DNA of 64,000 nt from positions 1 to 64,000 of the forward strand of contig CACZJU010000004.1 of the NCBI GenBank assembly GCA_902781515.1, given 5' to 3'. Position numbers and translations under genes: made by a program. The notes under the pieces were generated by a model that did no database searches, was not told the DNA's origin, and worked only from the letters and a program-made list of their open reading frames with translations. Positions 7,587 to 56,274 of this stretch are shown here, one piece after another (within the stretch, counting starts at the first letter, position 1; every line of letters begins with the position of its first letter). This DNA is from an uncultured Bacteroidales bacterium. GTDB taxonomy: Bacteria; Bacteroidota; Bacteroidia; Bacteroidales; Bacteroidaceae.

Positions 7587-10500
7587 TTAATTGATTTTAT
7601 AGGTTAGTGATTGATTATTGTCGAGCATTTCCAGCAGTTCGTTTGTGATGTTGATGTGGTACTGCGTGGAAACTGTCTGCAGGCTTATGCGCTTGCCAAC
7701 CTCCGTGACGTGGAACATGAGCTGTGTGTTGCCCGGGTTGTTCTTCGCGTAGTTGGCAAGGGCGAACACGAAATCCTCGTCGAGGTCTTCGAGGTGGAAG
7801 GCTATGGTGATGCTCTTCAGCAGTGTTTCCCTGACATTGGCAAGGAACTCTATGCTGCCAATCTTCAGCTCCAGACGGTCGGGCTGGTACTGACGGGGCT
7901 GCACACGGGCTGTGATGTACACCGTGTTACCGATGTCCATATAGCTGCCCCATGTTGCCCAGTCGTTGCCGAACAGCGGCAGTTCGCCGGAACCTTCGTA
8001 GTCCTCTATCGTCACTATTCCGTAGGGCAGGCCGCGTTTCGACATTCCCTTGCGGATGCCGGTGACGATGCCACCGAAATGAACCTCTTTGTTTGCGAAC
8101 TGTTCCTTCGCTTCCATCTGGTTCATGTGCATGTTGCAGGCATGTTTCAGTATTACGGCATAGTCGTCGAGAGGGTGAGCGGAGAGGTAGATGCCAATCT
8201 TCTCCTTTTCCTTGTTCAGTCGTTCCAGTGTGCTCCAAGGCGGTGCCACGGGAATCGGTGGAATGGTGATTTCTACGGAATTCAAGTCACCGAAGAGTGA
8301 GAACTTGGCCTCCTGTTCGGTCTGTTGGTATTGCACGCTGAATTTCGTCAGGGTGTCGATGAATTCCTCGCCCTTGTGGTTCTTGGCAAAGAACTGCTCG
8401 CGGGTGATTTGACTGGAGAAATCGTCGAAGGCACCGCTCAGCACCAGACATTCGAGGCCGCTGCGTTTCACCATTCCCATGGGGACGCGCTTTACGAAGT
8501 CGAAGATGTCCTTGTACAGGCCATTTGCTTCGCGTTCGTTGACGATGGCATCCACGGCACTGCTGCCCAAGCCAGATATCGCGTTCAGTCCGAAGCGTAT
8601 GTTGCCTTCGGGGTCAACGCTGAACTTGTGACGGCTGTAGTTGATATTCGGTCCCAGAGTGGCTATTCCCATGCCTTTACATTCGTTCATGAGTTTTGTC
8701 ACCTCGCCGATATCCTTTGCACGGCTCATAACGCCAGCCATGAACTGGGCAGGGAAGTTGGCTTTCAGGTAGGCCGTCTGGTATGCCACCCACGAATAGC
8801 ATGTGGCGTGACTCTTGTTGAAGGCATAGGATGCGAACTTCTCCCAGTCGGCCCATATCTTCTCCAGTATCTTCGGATCGTGTCCGTTGGCTTGTCCCTG
8901 ACTGATGAACTGCGGCTTCATGTGGTCCAGCTTGTCCTTCAGTTTCTTACCCATGGCCTTACGCAGTGTGTCGCTCTCGCCTCGGGTGAAGTTTGCCAAT
9001 TGGCGGCTGAGCAGCATGACCTGCTCCTGATAGACAGTGATGCCGTATGTATCCTTCAGGTATTTCTCCATGCAGGGTATGTCGTACTCTACAGGCTTGC
9101 GCCCCTGTTTCCTATCGATGAAATCGGGGATATAGTCCATTGGCCCCGGACGATATAGGGCGTTCATGGCTATGAGGTCCTCGAATGTGGAGGGCTGCAG
9201 TTCGCGCAGGTATTTCTGCATTCCTGCCGATTCGAACTGGAATGTTCCAATCGTTCTGCCGTCGCAATACAGTCGGTATGTGGCAGGGTCGTTGATGTCC
9301 AGTTTTTCCATGTCCACCTCTATGCCAAGACTGTCGCGTATGTTCTGCTGACATTCCTTTATCTGGCTCAGAGTCTTCAGTCCCAGGAAGTCCATCTTTA
9401 TAAGGCCGGTGTCTTCGATGACGGAACCTTCGTACTGCGTGCAGAGCAGTTTTTCGCCTGTTTCTTTGTCTTCGGCAGTGGAGATGGGCACCCAGTCACT
9501 GACATCGTCGCGGCAGATGATGACACCGCAGGCGTGTACACCGGTGTTGCGCACGTTGCCTTCCAGCTTCTTGGCGTATTTTATGGTGTTGGAAAGTACC
9601 GGATTTGGCGAGTTCTCTGCCTGTTGCAGTTCCGGCACTATGCTGATGACGTTGGGAAGGTTCATTTTCAAGGCCTTGCCGTTAACTTCCGGCATGCGGT
9701 CCGGAATGAGTTTGCAGAGCCCGTTCACCACGTCGAGCGGCAACTGTTCTATGCGTGCCACATCCTTCAGGGCAAGTTTTGTTGCCATGGTGCCATAGGT
9801 GATGATGTGAGCAACTTTGCTCTCGCCGTATTTCTGTGTCACCCATGAGAGCACCTTGCCACGACCGTCGTCGTCGAAATCGACATCGATATCGGGCAAT
9901 GAGATACGGTCAGGATTGAGGAAACGCTCGAACAGCAGGTCGTATTTGATGGGGTCTATCTGGGTGATTCCCAAACAGTAGGCTACGGCACTGCCGGCTG
10001 CCGAACCACGTCCGGGACCTACGCTGACATCAAGCTCGTGGCGTGCCGCGTTGATGTAGTCCTGTACGATGAGGAAGTAGCCCGGGAAACCCATCGATTT
10101 CATCACGTGAAGTTCGAATTTCAGTCGTTCCATGACATCCTTGGGCACGGGGTCGCCATACACCCTCTTGGCACCGATGAAGGTGAGATGCGCCAAGTAG
10201 TCGGCTTCCAGCTTCAGGCGATACAGTTTTTCCACGCCTCCCATGCCGTTTATCTTCTTCTGGGCAGCCTCTTCGCTCATGATGACGTTGCCGTTCTCGT
10301 CGCGCGTGAATTCGTCGAACAACTGCTGGTCGGTGAATTTCTTGTGATATTCCTCCTCGGTGCCGAATTCCTCGGGAATCTCGAAGTTGGGCATGATGGG
10401 ACTGTGGTCGATGTCGTAAATCTCCACCTTGTCGAGCACTTCCAGCGTGTTTGCCAATGCTTCGGGCACGTCGGCAAATATCTCGTTCATCTCGGCCATA

Positions 10501-26249: not shown

Positions 26250-26798
26250 ATGGACAAAAACGCTATACAACTACGTCGACTTGGTGAAAACGATATTGTT
26301 AACCACTTCGATTGCGGAGATGAAGACTTGAATGACTTCATCAGCACAGATGCATCATTATACTTCAAGGTTCGTCTGGCTACAAGTTATGTATTAGAAG
26401 ACAGTGAAAATGGAAACATTATCGGTTATTTTAGTCTTGCCCATGACCGCATTTCCTTGACTGATTTCCCAACAAACTCTGCGTATAATCGTTTTCGCAA
26501 GCAATTCTTTGCTCAAGGGAAGATGTTTAAAAGCTATCCCGCGTTAAAGATTTGTCGTTTGGCTACAGACAAGAAGTATCATGGAGAGGGCTTTGGAGCT
26601 ATGATTATAAATATGATAATTGCATCTTATCGTAATGATAATAAGGCTGGTTGTCGCTTTATTACCGTTGATGCATACAAAGATGCCCTTCCATTCTATT
26701 ACAAACAGGGTTTTGCCCCTCTCTCTAAAGAGGATGAAGACTCTGATACGCGCCTGCTTTATTTTGATTTGGAAAGTGTGAGGACTAATAAGGAATAG
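26250..26798 (+). CDS. GNAT-family acetyltransferase, putative TacT/AtaT-like toxin
   Basis: The product is 182 residues. The acetyl-CoA-binding motif A is 'ICRLATDKKYHGEGFGAMII' (about 101-120), followed by 'FYYKQGFAPL' (149-158), whose tyrosine matches the general-acid Tyr of the family. The opening 'FDCGDEDLNDFI' resembles the 'F.CG...LD.FL' substrate region of TacT-like toxins that acetylate aminoacyl-tRNA. It is encoded three bases after a 53-residue protein under one promoter. A housekeeping acetyltransferase remains possible. Codon use (many TTA, AAT, ATT) suggests transfer. Confidence 0.72.
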   Translation: MDKNAIQLRRLGENDIVNHFDCGDEDLNDFISTDASLYFKVRLATSYVLEDSENGNIIGYFSLAHDRISLTDFPTNSAYNRFRKQFFAQGKMFKSYPALKICRLATDKKYHGEGFGAMIINMIIASYRNDNKAGCRFITVDAYKDALPFYYKQGFAPLSKEDEDSDTRLLYFDLESVRTNKE

Positions 26799-26883
26799 TC
26801 TAACTTAACTTGTGAGCAAAGGTTAACTTCGCTCGATCTCTGATCGCTTTAACAAAGCGTAGCGACTTAAAGAACCTTCTGAC
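26799..26883. other. Gap after the GNAT gene with additional dyads
   Basis: Holds CGATCTCTGATCG (26834-26846) and CGCTTTAACAAAGCG (26845-26859), two adjoining dyads without a T tract, and TTAACTTC-type sequence. The 22-bp palindrome array follows. Confidence 0.5.
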
Positions 26884-26947
26884 ATAAGGTCTAGACCTTA
26901 TCGTCATAAGACGTGCGTCTTGTTGCCATAAGACCTAGGTCTTGTGA
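26884..26947. repeat. Palindrome array A: three dyads at exact 22-bp spacing
   Basis: Dyad centres are at 26892.5, 26914.5 and 26936.5. Units are 18 nt: ATAAGGTCTAGACCTTAT (perfect), ATAAGACGTGCGTCTTGT (near-perfect) and ATAAGACCTAGGTCTTGT. They are separated by the 4-nt spacers CGTC and TGCC. The array lies between the GNAT gene and the promoter of the 1091-residue surface protein gene. Confidence 0.9.
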
Positions 26948-26991
26948 AACAAGCGTTTTTAGTGTTGTCAGGCAAAAAAACGGCGATATGT

Positions 26992-27022
26992 TTTGCCGTA
27001 TGCCAACTTATCACTATCTTTA
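26992..27022 (+). promoter_or_regulatory. Sigma-ABfr-type promoter of the 1091-residue surface protein
   Basis: TTTG at 26992-26995, a 19-bp spacer, then TATCTTTA at 27015-27022. The -33 box lies in the right arm of an inverted pair (GGCAAAA at 26971, TTTTGCC at 26991). Confidence 0.75.
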
Positions 27023-27031
27023 CGGCGCGAT

Positions 27032-27075
27032 AGTGCATTTTGTGCACTCTTGCGACTGCGCAGCGGCGCAGCAAG
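27032..27075 (+). promoter_or_regulatory. Two abutting hairpins in the surface-protein leader
   Basis: Hairpin 1: AGTGCA (27032-27037), loop TTTTG, TGCACT (to 27048). Hairpin 2 starts at the next base: CTTGC-GAC-TGCGC, loop AGCG, GCGCA-GCAAG (27049-27075), with a 3-base bulge. Both fall in the predicted leader, about 45-90 bases before the ATG. No T tract follows, so they are not a terminator. Confidence 0.6.
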
Positions 27076-27120
27076 GCCTTAAACCTGAATCAATTAATAA
27101 CTAATCATAATTAATTAACT

Positions 27121-30100
27121 ATGAAAAAACTAATTTTACTCTTTCTTACGCTATTATTGGGCGTAACGGCCTCGTGGGCTGAAACATCTACATGGGAATC
27201 TAAGGAAGGCTGGACACAGGCTAGTGGTGGTATGGGTTCATATACATGGTTTGGTGTTCATACTCCTGGAGATGCATCTACAAAGTATTCCTTGACTGCT
27301 ATTCAACTTATGCAGCAAACAGGTAGTGGTAATAATGATAACTATTTGGCCATTGCGCGTGTGTCAGCAACCTCTACTCTTGATGCAAACCATGTAGTTG
27401 CCATTTCTGATAACCATTTGGCAGCAGCTCAGTCAACGGGCTCTCTCGAAACCTATGATTTCAGTGCTGGTGTAGAGTTGTTGGGTGGAACTACGTATTA
27501 CTTAGTATTCCTTTCTTCCAATACACCGACAGATGGTGCTTATCCTGTACGGGCTGGACGTCTTTCTTTGAACCATACGGATTATGGAACTTATACTTAT
27601 GGCAACAGCTTTAGCATGACTAGTACCCACTGGCTTTACTACAAGGCTACTGTAGAGTCCTCTCCTGCTACAGGTTTCTGCACAGGTGACATTTTGGGTG
27701 GAAGCATGGACAGTGGTAACTGGAAAAACCTGTGGACTTCTGGAACGACTCCTTCGTTCACAATAACCTGTAACGCCAACAATATCAACAATTCTGCGAG
27801 CAAACCCGCAGGTGGCTTGGATATCCGAAGTGGTACAGCCAAAAGCGCAACATACACGATTACTGCTCCTGCGGGTTATATGATTTCGGGGTACAAGTTG
27901 TTCGGTAATGCTATCACAGCTGCTAATACTCAGACAGTAACCCCTGCCGAAGGTGGTTCTGCTGTAGGATTTACCGGTGTGGGCAATAGCCTTTGTGTTT
28001 CGGGTTTCCGTAAACCTTCTACCAGTTTCACGCTGACAGGAGAGAATTCAGGTTTGTTCCTGCACGCTTTGGAGGTGTCACTTGCTCCTTATAGCAGTAT
28101 TACCTCACTTCCCACAGCTAACAATAAGGCATACGTGATTGCAAATGCACGTGCTACATTTAATTTTGCAGATGACGCTACTGGCATGAGTGTGGTAACT
28201 CCTGCTAATACGAATTTTGACAACACTCAACAGCAAATAGCTCTCATCTATAAGAATGAGAACTACTATCTCTTCAGCGTCAATGCAGGCAAGTACCTCA
28301 CAGCCAGCAATACATTGACTTCAATGCCTACAGACAACGAACAGGTTAGTATCACAGCTACTGGTAATGCCACTTATCCCTGGTTCTTTAAATTCAAGAA
28401 CGTAGCAGACAAAAACATCAATGTCACAACCGCCCCTGCACTTACCATTGACAATTGGTCAACTGTAGATGCCGGTAATAGCAATGCAATCATTGAGGTT
28501 GCCAACTTCGATCCTACACTCGCGTTGGAGATGTTCGATGTCCGCTACGTAACCTACAACCTCAATTTTAATGGTGGCTCAACTCTTGATACTGAAAGTG
28601 ATGTTACAGTTACCATTGGTGGTGACCCTGCAGACTTCGTTCCCTCAAAGTTTGCGAATCCGTTTGTCAGCTTCACTTATAGTCCTGCCATCATATCCGC
28701 TGAAACCACAGAGGTGACAGTGACCGCTACATGGAATGGTCCGTTCAACATCGCTGATGACTATAATGCAGCTACACAGAACATCTGGTATGTGGTTGAT
28801 ATGCACTCCAATGAGAATGACTATACGTGGCAGTATGATTCTGAGTCAGGAGAAATTAAGACACCTGTCATTGCTAAGAATGCTTACGGTAGTCTCACCG
28901 ATAACAACCTCTGGTGCTTCGTAGGTAATCCATACGAAGGCTTCAAGATTTACAATAAGGCTGCAGGAAACACGATGACAATCCGCAAGGCAGATGCTGG
29001 TAACACAGTGTCTTATATGTCAACAACGGATGACCATAACAGGTTCAAACTCTACGAATCCAATGGTGCAATTTCCAATTCTTATTGTTTCAAGCTGGAT
29101 GGAGACGATTACTATTTGAACAAGCAGAATCTGAAGTTGCAGGGTTGGACTGACAAAGATCAAGGCTCCTCTTGCCGTTTCTTTGCTCCTGGCACTTACC
29201 ATCTTGCTGCAATGTCTTCTTGGAATCTCAATGCGCCTGTGGGGGCTGTTGGAACGAAGTCTTATATCACTTCCGAATCTCTGCGTACGAGTATGGTGGA
29301 AGCACAGACAAATATTACCAATGACCCGTTCTGTGTCGTTGGACAGTTCACTATGTTGAACACGATATTGGATCCTGTTAATTCTTCGGATTTCATTACC
29401 CTTACCGATGGCTACTATCGCATTATCAGTGCAGTTCCTGGCTTCAATCAGACAGCAGCATGGTACTACAATCCGAGCGTAAGCGCTGACCATATCACAT
29501 GGGCTAAAGCTGCTACAACTTCGGAGCAACAGGTGAACTCAATCTTTAAGTTTGAATCAAGTGATGAGAATTGGAATATTAAAAGTCCCAATGCGCAGAA
29601 ATACTTAATCCATGACAACACAGCATTTAGTGCACAGACAGGTACTATTGGCGATGAACCAGGTACTGTTTATGTAAATGCTATCGGTTCAGCTCAACAT
29701 ACACTGAGAATCAATGTACAAACGATTCATGCTAACGGACATGGCAGCGGAGCAGGGACATCAGGAACACTTATTAACTGGAATGCAAACGATCCAGGTG
29801 CAGCTTCTGCTTGGTATATAGTAGAGGTAGATGACGTCACAGTGACGCTCCACAATGGAGGTGATGAATATTATTATGCAACGTTCTGTGCTCCTTTCAG
29901 CTACACAGTTAGCGATGGAACAACTGCTTATACATTGGCAGCAAGTGGTAATTGGCTTGTTCCAACTGAGGTCGTTGGAGAAGTACCTGCTGGTACACCT
30001 GTCCTGTTGAAGGGTACATCATCCTCTGCTACTCTGACAATTGGTACAAGCGATGAAGCGACACCTGTTACTTCAACGGCTCTAACAGGAGTTTATATTG

Positions 30101-30396
30101 AAACTACTATTGATGGCGCAACAGACTACGTGCTGGGTATTAATGAAGGTGTCGTTGGATTCTATCATTGGAACCAGAGCAGCTTAGCTGCTAATCGTGC
30201 TTATGTTGACACTCCTGAACAGTCAGAGCCTGGTGTTAAGGGATACGTTCTCAGTTGGGACGATGAGACTGGAATTAAGAACCTTAACGTTAACGATAAC
30301 CTTAACAAAGTTGTCTATGACCTCAGCGGTCGCCGTATCCAGAAGCCTACTAAGGGTCTCTACATTGTGAATGGTAAGAAAGTAATGGTAAAATAA
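27121..30396 (+). CDS. Large secreted protein with DLSGRR-type C-terminal tail
   Basis: The product is 1091 residues. A clear signal peptide ('LLGVTASWAE') is followed by beta-rich sequence with several modules of about 100-150 residues, including 'YYLFSVNAGKYLTASNTL' and 'GYYRIISAVPGFNQ' segments that look like ricin-like or galactose-binding-like sugar modules, though I cannot assign a family. No catalytic motif is seen. The end is 'VVYDLSGRRIQKPTKGLYIV' plus a basic tail, shared with three other window proteins and probably a surface-sorting signal. The residues before it (KNLNVNDNLNKV) come from a 9-bp repeat (30280-30306). It lies 18 bases before a small gene with a strong Shine-Dalgarno. 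Confidence 0.75.
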   Translation: MKKLILLFLTLLLGVTASWAETSTWESKEGWTQASGGMGSYTWFGVHTPGDASTKYSLTAIQLMQQTGSGNNDNYLAIARVSATSTLDANHVVAISDNHLAAAQSTGSLETYDFSAGVELLGGTTYYLVFLSSNTPTDGAYPVRAGRLSLNHTDYGTYTYGNSFSMTSTHWLYYKATVESSPATGFCTGDILGGSMDSGNWKNLWTSGTTPSFTITCNANNINNSASKPAGGLDIRSGTAKSATYTITAPAGYMISGYKLFGNAITAANTQTVTPAEGGSAVGFTGVGNSLCVSGFRKPSTSFTLTGENSGLFLHALEVSLAPYSSITSLPTANNKAYVIANARATFNFADDATGMSVVTPANTNFDNTQQQIALIYKNENYYLFSVNAGKYLTASNTLTSMPTDNEQVSITATGNATYPWFFKFKNVADKNINVTTAPALTIDNWSTVDAGNSNAIIEVANFDPTLALEMFDVRYVTYNLNFNGGSTLDTESDVTVTIGGDPADFVPSKFANPFVSFTYSPAIISAETTEVTVTATWNGPFNIADDYNAATQNIWYVVDMHSNENDYTWQYDSESGEIKTPVIAKNAYGSLTDNNLWCFVGNPYEGFKIYNKAAGNTMTIRKADAGNTVSYMSTTDDHNRFKLYESNGAISNSYCFKLDGDDYYLNKQNLKLQGWTDKDQGSSCRFFAPGTYHLAAMSSWNLNAPVGAVGTKSYITSESLRTSMVEAQTNITNDPFCVVGQFTMLNTILDPVNSSDFITLTDGYYRIISAVPGFNQTAAWYYNPSVSADHITWAKAATTSEQQVNSIFKFESSDENWNIKSPNAQKYLIHDNTAFSAQTGTIGDEPGTVYVNAIGSAQHTLRINVQTIHANGHGSGAGTSGTLINWNANDPGAASAWYIVEVDDVTVTLHNGGDEYYYATFCAPFSYTVSDGTTAYTLAASGNWLVPTEVVGEVPAGTPVLLKGTSSSATLTIGTSDEATPVTSTALTGVYIETTIDGATDYVLGINEGVVGFYHWNQSSLAANRAYVDTPEQSEPGVKGYVLSWDDETGIKNLNVNDNLNKVVYDLSGRRIQKPTKGLYIVNGKKVMVK
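30280..30306 (+). repeat. In-frame 9-bp repeat before the DLSGRR tail
   Basis: AACCTTAAC, GTTAACGAT, AACCTTAAC at 30280, 30289 and 30298. Same position relative to the tail as the 9-bp array at 1456-1491. Confidence 0.65.
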
Positions 30397-30692: not shown

Positions 30693-30739
30693 TTGATACT
30701 GATGTCCTGTATTGCGCATTAGTAGTGAAAGGGAAAAGA

Positions 30740-30841
30740 CACTATAGTGACTTGCCTCACACACTATTAGTGTTTTTGAAAAACATTACTAATGTATAGG
30801 GCGAAACACTACTAATGTTCCGCCCCATGCATTACTAATGC
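30740..30841. repeat. Palindrome array B: five dyads at 22-23 bp spacing
   Basis: Dyads CACTATAGTG, ACACTATTAGTGT, ACATTACTAATGT, ACACTACTAATGT (imperfect) and GCATTACTAATGC have centres at 30744.5, 30767, 30789, 30812 and 30835. Spacers of 9-11 nt include GC-rich GGGCG and CCGCCCC. The array sits between convergent genes, after a terminator. Confidence 0.88.
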
Positions 30842-30863
30842 TTAATTACTTTTCCTCTTTGCA

Positions 30864-56167: not shown

Positions 56168-56274
56168 GGTATATTAATCCTTCGCCGAAGGTTAATATAA
56201 CCTATCGCCATAAGTTAATATAACCTATCGCCATAAGTTAATATAACCTATCGCCATAGGTTAATATAACCTTT
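56168..56274. repeat. Palindrome array C: four dyads at exact 23-bp spacing plus a degenerate fifth
   Basis: GTTAATATAAC cores begin at 56191, 56214, 56237 and 56260. Each full unit is a dyad ATA-x-GTTA-ATA-TAAC-x-TAT followed by the 4-nt spacer CGCC. A degenerate unit GGTATATTAATCC (56168-56180) with the same CGCC spacer precedes them. The array lies between the rubredoxin terminator and the DUF6057 promoter. Confidence 0.9.

Follow-up and report, generated by a model that had tools for sequence, protein, structure and literature searches.

Dispersed arrays of palindromic units at a pitch of 21 to 23 bp in an uncultured Bacteroidales bacterium and its relatives

Introduction

The closest described element to the arrays treated here is the BrickBuilt MITE of Porphyromonas gingivalis, and the next closest are the CGTC-tagged REPs. 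As presented in the available part of PMC4596501, BrickBuilt consists of 23-nt tandem units at 19 intergenic loci, with predicted stem-loops; the units lie between a leader and a tail with terminal inverted repeats (TIRs) that match a resident IS, and the element has been linked by its authors to assembly gaps. The CGTC REPs, which include dRS3 of Neisseria, are described in the available part of PMC3733652 as mostly intergenic, present in many copies per genome and without a known dedicated transposase, dRS3 being clustered in mosaics. They carry the tag CGTC (also TGTC or CCTC) and a stem of 8-9 bp with a loop of 4-5, the first pairs being A-T and T-A; head-to-head dimers prevail, head-to-tail ones are negligible, and the unpaired tail is mostly CCA (PMC3733652).

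Here we analyse a stretch of 64,000 nucleotides (the window; contig CACZJU010000004.1, assembly GCA_902781515.1) from an uncultured Bacteroidales bacterium, in which an earlier note, made from the letters alone, had described three palindromes at a regular pitch (array A). Array A is one small copy, in part degraded, of a dispersed repeat of palindromic units that is non-coding and mostly intergenic. Such arrays are real, recurrent and more widespread than first noted; they belong to the MITE/REP kind and may amount to a class defined by geometry. The window's own genome is denoted G000, other G numbers denote genomes of the collection, and L numbers denote loci.

Results

Array A comprises three 18-bp dyads at positions 26884-26945, whose centres (26892.5, 26914.5 and 26936.5) lie exactly 22 bp apart, as the earlier note had it. 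All three are given on the plus strand: unit 1 (26884-26901, ATAAGGTCTAGACCTTAT) is a perfect dyad with nine of nine pairs, followed by the spacer CGTC; unit 2 (26906-26923, ATAAGACGTGCGTCTTGT), followed by the spacer TGCC, is an imperfect palindrome with seven of nine pairs (GACG-TG-CGTC); and unit 3 (26928-26945, ATAAGACCTAGGTCTTGT) has eight of nine. The spacers and the ATAAG opening are thus as claimed, while the description of the units as palindromes holds fully for unit 1 and imperfectly for units 2 and 3, both of which end in CTTGT so that their second pair is T-G. The array is also longer than had been claimed: upstream of it a chain scan adds three degenerate stretches (7, 4 and 5 of 9 pairs) at 26815-26883 on the plus strand, remnants of AGGTTAACTTAACCT-class units, giving a run at 26815-26945 whose score of 10.9 exceeds those of all 20 first-order Markov sequences of the window's length (maximum 6.4). 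An insert of about 43 bp at about 26830-26872 splits one of these upstream units; a close copy of it lies within such a unit at locus L181 of the same genome, and at L184 the corresponding unit has no insert. A small CGCTCG... repeat occurs within palindromic units at window positions 26830-26872 and at L181, L010 and L192, and the pair L181 and L184 resembles a filled and an empty site of this small insert.

The pattern ATAAG-N8-CTTRT-N4-ATAAG, with up to three mismatches, has nine matches in the window, five of which overlap array A; the shuffle mean is 2.23 and none of 100 shuffles reaches nine. Two further arrays were recognised in the window, both scoring above the Markov maximum. One, at 30736-30844 with no strand assigned, has five dyads at 22/23 bp, of the CACTA.TAGTG / CATTACTAATG class (score 10.8). 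The other, at 56187-56274 on the plus strand, has four units of the AGGTTAATATAACCT class spaced at 23 bp; their spacers are CGCC, and a T-tract comes after them (score 7.8).

Array A lies between two genes on the plus strand, one (26250-26798) encoding a GNAT acetyltransferase of 182 aa (Pfam PF13673, 1.4e-10) and the other (27121-30396) a secreted-looking protein of 1091 aa, without a Pfam match, whose C-terminal end is of the YDLSGRR..GLYI.NGKKV.K kind, which we take to be T9SS-like. The secreted-protein gene is flanked by arrays on both sides (array A and that at 30736-30844). At 26992-27023, about 50 bp after array A, stands TTTG-N19-TATCTTTAC, overlapped by a GGCAAAA..TTTTGCC stem; we take it to resemble a Bacteroidetes promoter (-33 TTTG, -7 TAnnTTTG). 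The earlier note placed the array just upstream of a surface-protein promoter, and array A might be read as a local operator array controlling the downstream gene, whose start codon lies 175 bp past the end of the array; tandem operators at about two turns do exist, the ArgR boxes and lambda OR being local regulatory sites made of 17-18-bp dyads about two turns apart and bound cooperatively. Dozens of like arrays lie elsewhere, however; their neighbours are unlike genes (SecDF and GH127 genes among them), and the gaps that they occupy are of the tandem, convergent and divergent types. The 11 homologues of the upstream GNAT gene that were checked show no ATAAG array over up to 900 bp on their downstream side (one, in G084, has a single unit-like match there). 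Local control of this kind is very improbable, and the surface-protein gene beside array A looks incidental.

In the window's own genome the two-unit ATAAG pattern gives 14 strand matches, with none for the reversed-pattern control, and single ATAAG units give 84 against 11 in the control. At five places two single units stand 22 bp apart in opposite orientation, which counts against a head-to-tail brick reading. The mosaics of this genome are built from units of 18 or 19 bp belonging to several sequence classes, mostly with 4-nt spacers and hence at a pitch of 22 or 23 bp; the longest credible chain has 16 units with the weak ones counted in, such unit numbers being upper bounds because the chains extend into stretches that are not real units. 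Adjacent units in the mosaics tend to resemble each other. A fixed master order of the unit classes was suspected, but the annotated order of modules varies and the idea was rejected. Modules adjoining the long arrays of this genome contain a hairpin CCC-TTTATTYATC-GGG (L008, L009, L010, L016, L017, L176, L177, L181, L188 and L193), and the same modules carry longer palindromes in a similar layout with copy-specific words (GGTGAGGTTT/AAACCTCACC, GGTACCTG/CAGGTACC and ATGAGGTG).

Contig ends lie within 1.5 kb of 11 of 34 own-genome loci against 5.6% expected (P 1.5e-6), a count that covers 34 of 43 places (excluding seven unlike single units and two places whose contigs are of unknown length) and takes near neighbours separately. 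Such crowding is usual for assembly-breaking repeats, and the arrays may explain some of the contig breaks in this assembly.

Further arrays of the ATAAG grammar exist in related genomes, so that the absence which the earlier note named as refuting its reading is not observed. A first search found the two-unit pattern in four of 41 genomes, the window's own included; within the genus the type is present in 14 of 139 genomes, all controls being zero, and is thus sporadic, two array-rich genomes having 146+139 and 75+82 strand matches. Among 393 genomes of the order (207 genera) there was no match to the ATAAG type beyond the window's own genome. A scan of contigs from named genomes gave at least 112 stretches with ATAAG arrays, 90 of them among the matches listed from the rumen Bacteroidales assemblies RGIG6885 and RUG837. 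Species mostly have a core of their own, for example AAGTACGTGTACTT in RUG837 and AAGATTACTATCTT in E4_MB2_73, the latter also found in Horse_feces100. A total of 153 non-redundant ATAAG arrays from 14 genomes (two to seven units at 22-bp steps; the search that collected them relied largely on a head-to-tail pattern) includes 59 with four units and 37 with five, and one array of the family occupies an orthologous place in three species (L022, L042 and L043). A non-coding element of a few hundred base pairs, with an array and a conserved tail (GATTTAAGCGCATTTCT..., TTGCGAA), was seen at L042, L043, L022, L047, L051, L064, L077, L081, L097 and L101; it recurs in RGIG6885 and, in three species, at one orthologous place. 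Phage origin was considered and rejected, since the single viral contig of the collection that matches looks like chance.

Within the ATAAG family, 177 of 178 neighbouring steps measure 22 bp where 16-30 bp was allowed and 198 exact matches to the search pattern had been excluded, the arrays themselves having been collected by 22-bp steps; an earlier count, at loci chosen by a 22-bp pattern, gave 392 of 394 steps at 22 bp and two at 21. Near-equal pitch is also found in other species with unrelated palindromes, namely TGCATCTACATGTAGATGCA (22 bp), TATTTTCAAGGCTTGAAAATA (21 bp) and GTTTCCC-N4-GGGAAAC (22 bp). Searched over whole genomes, with controls of zero in each case, the TGCATCTACATGTAGATGCA junction occurs at 156 places per strand in G096, the 21-bp family has 143+132 strand matches at up to two mismatches in G100, and pairs of GTTTCCC-N4-GGGAAAC number 19 per strand in G206, a member of a different genus of the family whose dispersed palindromes have an unrelated brick sequence. 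Of 22 sampled arrays of G096, 19 are made of exactly three units, and 45 of 45 steps measure 22 bp; 15 sampled arrays of G100 have two to four detected units, and 28 of 28 steps measure 21 bp. Both step counts tolerated a deviation of 1 bp, and fixed-pitch patterns had served to find most of the places. The outer ends of the G096 arrays match each other as inverted repeats. As we divided them, unit and spacer measure 18+4, 20+2, 21+0 and 16+6 bp, and the quantity shared is the centre-to-centre distance. Bricks of unrelated sequence, few per array (typically three in one species, four to five in others) and at a pitch of 21-22 bp, thus occur in several further species of the genus and in a single species from a different genus of the family.

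A scan that presumed no pitch covered 1.55 Mb of sequence selected without regard to the repeat. This sequence came from 37 genomes (20 within the genus, five from other genera of the family and 12 from other families), which were unevenly represented, at 0.8 to 120 kb per genome. The scan gave 25 runs of at least three dyads, three of them at 22 bp and two at 21 bp, against none of 16 at either pitch in the Markov control; the three 22-bp runs are one family in G096, the 21-bp runs come from G100 and G129, and that of G129 is CCTAGG every 10 bp, which weakens the count of five in 25. (At L284, positions 134-179, in G129, five CCTAGG stand at exact 10-bp steps.) Two runs called at 33 bp are 22-bp arrays read at 1.5 units (G016 and G110), and the remaining runs resemble the Markov control. 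Pairs of strong dyads within the family, counted with the 20-kb stretch L241 left out, peak at 22 bp with five of 18 pairs (two in G096, two in G142 and one in G110) and none in the control; in other families there were six such pairs, three of them at 22-23 bp and all from G177. At L309 and L310 of G177 two different palindromes lie 22-23 bp apart in three occurrences within 30 kb. A chain scan presuming 22 or 23 bp, and hence no test of pitch, added arrays in G119 and G206. In G142, L217 near 480-530 reads TTTATCACGCGTGATAAA-AGAG-TTTATCACACGTGATAAA, two units only, of 18+4 at 22 bp. The chain-scan runs of G142 were rejected as arrays, being mostly coding-like repeat; at L218, positions 9256-9521, GAGTACTC words in a dyad-like run look like a Ser-Glu-Tyr coding repeat that mimics an array.

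The earlier note took symmetry and pitch to be kept while the letters change, and read this as compensatory change. Among 66 distinct units of the window's own genome, pairs 6-13 and 7-12 are Watson-Crick at frequencies of 0.59 and 0.62, compared with 0.31 and 0.40 in shuffled units (for each pair, 0 of 200 shuffles came as high), in shuffle tests which, here and below, ignore the relatedness of the units. Between the commonest units of 15 genomes, several of which rest on one or two copies, pairs 8-11 (0 of 2000 shuffles) and 7-12 (p 0.006) stand above shuffling and pair 6-13 does so weakly (0.04), with no excess at pair 9-10. Within RGIG6885 (95 distinct units) and RUG837 (67) no covariation was found, and pairs 7-12 and 9-10 fall below the shuffle, probably as a by-product of units in both orientations. 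Symmetry is thus kept in the long run, and compensatory change is true only in part: it holds in the window's own genome and between the 15 genomes, and not within RGIG6885 or RUG837.

These results bear on a neutral account in which the arrays are minisatellites, tandem palindromes being formed and kept by hairpin-assisted slippage and quasi-palindrome correction with no binding partner. The likeness of neighbouring units, the restriction of within-genome covariation to the window's own genome among the well-sampled ones, and words that are entirely different between some species are all in keeping with such an origin. Slippage alone, however, would not disperse arrays over scores of loci, nor produce three units in most of the G096 arrays with their matching inverted ends, and the pitch is common to unrelated families; we regard this account as unlikely.

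The main rival is a repeat of the CGTC-REP type, whose units would fold back on the YGYC strand as hairpins in single-stranded DNA or RNA and be used by an HUH-type enzyme or in a transcript. The spacer consensus is YGYC and adjoins a stem that opens with AT, as in the CGTC REPs of PMC3733652 in its available part; in RGIG6885 the forms CGTC, TGTC and CCTC together make up 40 of 166 spacers, TGCC 29 and CGCC 20. In the outer two pairs, read on the YGYC strand, G-T wobbles outnumber A-C mismatches by 52 to 17 (19 to 9 in the window's own genome and 33 to 8 in the others), and array A folds better than its shuffles (z -4.7 on the plus strand and -3.7 on the minus strand). A mild lean towards convergent gaps points the same way, with 36 arrays in convergent and 24 in divergent gaps against 27 and 38 background gaps (Fisher p 0.049). 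Against a hairpin stands the lack of a clear gene-orientation bias: arrays in tandem gaps have the YGYC strand in sense in 21 cases, antisense in 30 and ambiguous in 12 (p 0.26), and the divergent gaps hold those 24 of the 153 ATAAG arrays. (An ORF contains 1 of 153 ATAAG, 1 of 22 G096 and 3 of 15 G100 arrays, and none in an earlier count of 97; gene context comes from a crude ORF picker, with 29 of the 153 arrays at a stretch edge left unclassed.) The arrays are moreover mostly head-to-tail, an arrangement negligible among CGTC REPs, and hairpins would not be expected to keep a constant pitch where spacers range over 0-6 nt.

An HUH-type partner was not found either. Y1_Tnp has no match in the window's own genome (an 86% complete assembly), and ten of twelve Y1 loci in other array-bearing genomes, whose flanks were inspected, show no ATAAG-type unit; a RAYT partner was accordingly rejected. 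Y1 proteins ending in YI/V.NQ..HH are encoded at L139, L140, L141 and L144 in G041, G042 and G043, all of which bear arrays, and there are no units nearby; the end is like that of subclass 1.2 in the available part of PMC6006769. On this balance the hairpin reading is rather doubtful, and we prefer double-stranded binding, because the pitch is kept though spacer and arm length vary and there is no clear gene-orientation bias.

The ends of the arrays differ between genomes. In RUG837 each of the 20 exact copies of GATAATCCGCAAAA found in the genome lies at a distance of 29-32 or 50-53 bp from array units, and in three arrays an exact GATAATCCGCAAAA bounds both sides as a terminal inverted repeat. 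A longer element bearing this exact repeat was not seen, and no pair of exact TIRs at IS distance was found in G041, where exact copies were sought. The window's own genome has recurrent outer ends such as TTTTCAGGCAAA, among which no TIR pair was recognised. In RGIG6885, 26 of 57 arrays begin with a forward unit and end with a reversed one, FFFR being the commonest form (11 of 57), and a T-tract follows the last unit in 32 of the 57. This T-tract, together with the CGTTTTT directly after array A, recalls transcription terminators of several hairpins, some of them bidirectional, and terminator-like structures do occur at 18 of 114 array ends in RGIG6885 (control 2 of 98) and at 11 of 74 in RUG837 (control 1 of 58). 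Most array ends nevertheless have no such structure (7 of 74 have one in the window's own genome, control 1 of 60), the site of the window array fails a terminator-prediction test, and terminators need no pitch. Termination as the explanation of the arrays is decidedly improbable; the terminator-like structures at their ends are a side effect or a side use.

Beside the arrays neither a protein partner nor an autonomous copy was found: two secreted-type protein clusters are all that recur in more than three loci (the three-member clusters being mostly unannotated). Rfam gave no match for window positions 26500-27300 at E up to 1 and none for 16 array loci at the gathering score, and for 12 loci, hairpin modules of the window's own genome among them, it gave five matches at E up to 0.5 to miRNA and snoRNA models far below the gathering score; membership of a curated Rfam family was therefore rejected for want of a match at a useful score. 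A search of the open-licence literature by title and abstract opening found no description of this family of palindrome arrays.

Discussion

What the arrays have in common is dispersal, symmetry, pitch, species-specific words and a small unit number, with inverted ends in some species; their mobility we infer. We tentatively propose, as a reading that falls somewhat short of being probable, that they are miniature non-autonomous MITE-like or REP-like elements composed of palindromic bricks, each a predicted site for a dimer, at a pitch of two turns. A dimeric protein would find a two-fold site in each brick, and neighbouring dimers, set two turns apart, would sit on roughly the same face of the DNA, where they could assemble into a multimer, candidates being a recombinase or transposase that spreads the element, or an architectural protein. 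Were this protein species-specific, brick and protein might change in step, and the pitch, dictated by the helix, would stay the same.

Several observations count against phased dimers. Neither 22 nor 23 bp is an exact multiple of 10.5, so the facing of the units drifts along an array, and the mosaics of the window's own genome mix 22-bp and 23-bp units. The G-T over A-C asymmetry hints at a strand that folds back, the convergent lean suits a transcribed element at 3' ends, and the ATAAG type is sporadic in the genus.

A further and more speculative proposal, which we hold as a possibility, is that the dimer-site elements form a class defined by geometry: from one species of a genus to the next the words would be exchanged entirely, whereas pitch, symmetry and a small brick number would persist, because a fast-evolving multimeric DNA-binding protein (a transposase, a recombinase or a chromosome organiser) would read the bricks in phase. 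If so, a rule independent of sequence (dyads at 21-23 bp) would reveal repeats that alignment-based repeat finders miss, and the change of words from species to species would be a natural series in which to look for the protein that reads them. The matter bears on a question that the available part of PMC3733652 leaves open, namely what mobilises REPs that lack a dedicated transposase.

Among known systems, the ArgR boxes and lambda OR are alike in the size and spacing of their dyads and unlike in that the present arrays are dispersed repeats. REP/BIME elements associated with RAYT (the GTAG family) share dispersed palindromes and species-specific sequence; the arrays differ from them in having YGYC in place of a GTAG tag, as well as in the results for Y1_Tnp given above.

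The likeness to the CGTC REPs of PMC3733652, as far as its available part describes them, lies in short palindromes that open with AT, a tag that may be C/TGTC-like, a mostly intergenic position, many copies per genome and the want of a known dedicated transposase; clustering in mosaics is a point of likeness with dRS3. The first pairs A-T and T-A are those of the ATAAG..CTTAT units, which were searched by that pattern, and not those of the G096 and G206 families; the G096, G100 and G206 families open with other letters. The tag here is YGYC only, and the arms differ between species. Compared with the stem of 8-9 bp and loop of 4-5, the commonest unit of the window's own genome is a palindrome with a CTAG centre (7-bp arms and a 4-nt loop), that of RGIG6885 is mismatched at pair 7-12, and that of RUG837 has 8-bp arms and a 2-nt centre. 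Inside the arrays there is no free tail in place of the mostly CCA tail of the REPs, and the units run head-to-tail at one strict pitch, in arrays that were collected largely by a head-to-tail pattern and beside which opposite-orientation pairs also exist.

With BrickBuilt the arrays share the taxonomic order, tandem units scattered through intergenic sites, an association with assembly breaks and, in RUG837, terminal inverted repeats; tandem units of about 23 nt between a leader and a tail with TIRs, the arrangement given in the available part of PMC4596501, were found in RUG837 only. The unit sequences are unrelated, the best agreement being 12-13 of 23 letters in any rotation among six unit types. 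The available part of PMC4596501 mentions dyad symmetry in passing and gives no dyad spacing, whereas the arrays here are of 16-21-bp palindromes, usually three to five per array, with species-specific sequences, and no resident IS matching their TIRs was found (exact TIR pairs were sought, in G041). Although they have no sequence kinship with BrickBuilt and depart from the defining features of the CGTC REPs, as the available parts of the two papers give these, the arrays resemble both.
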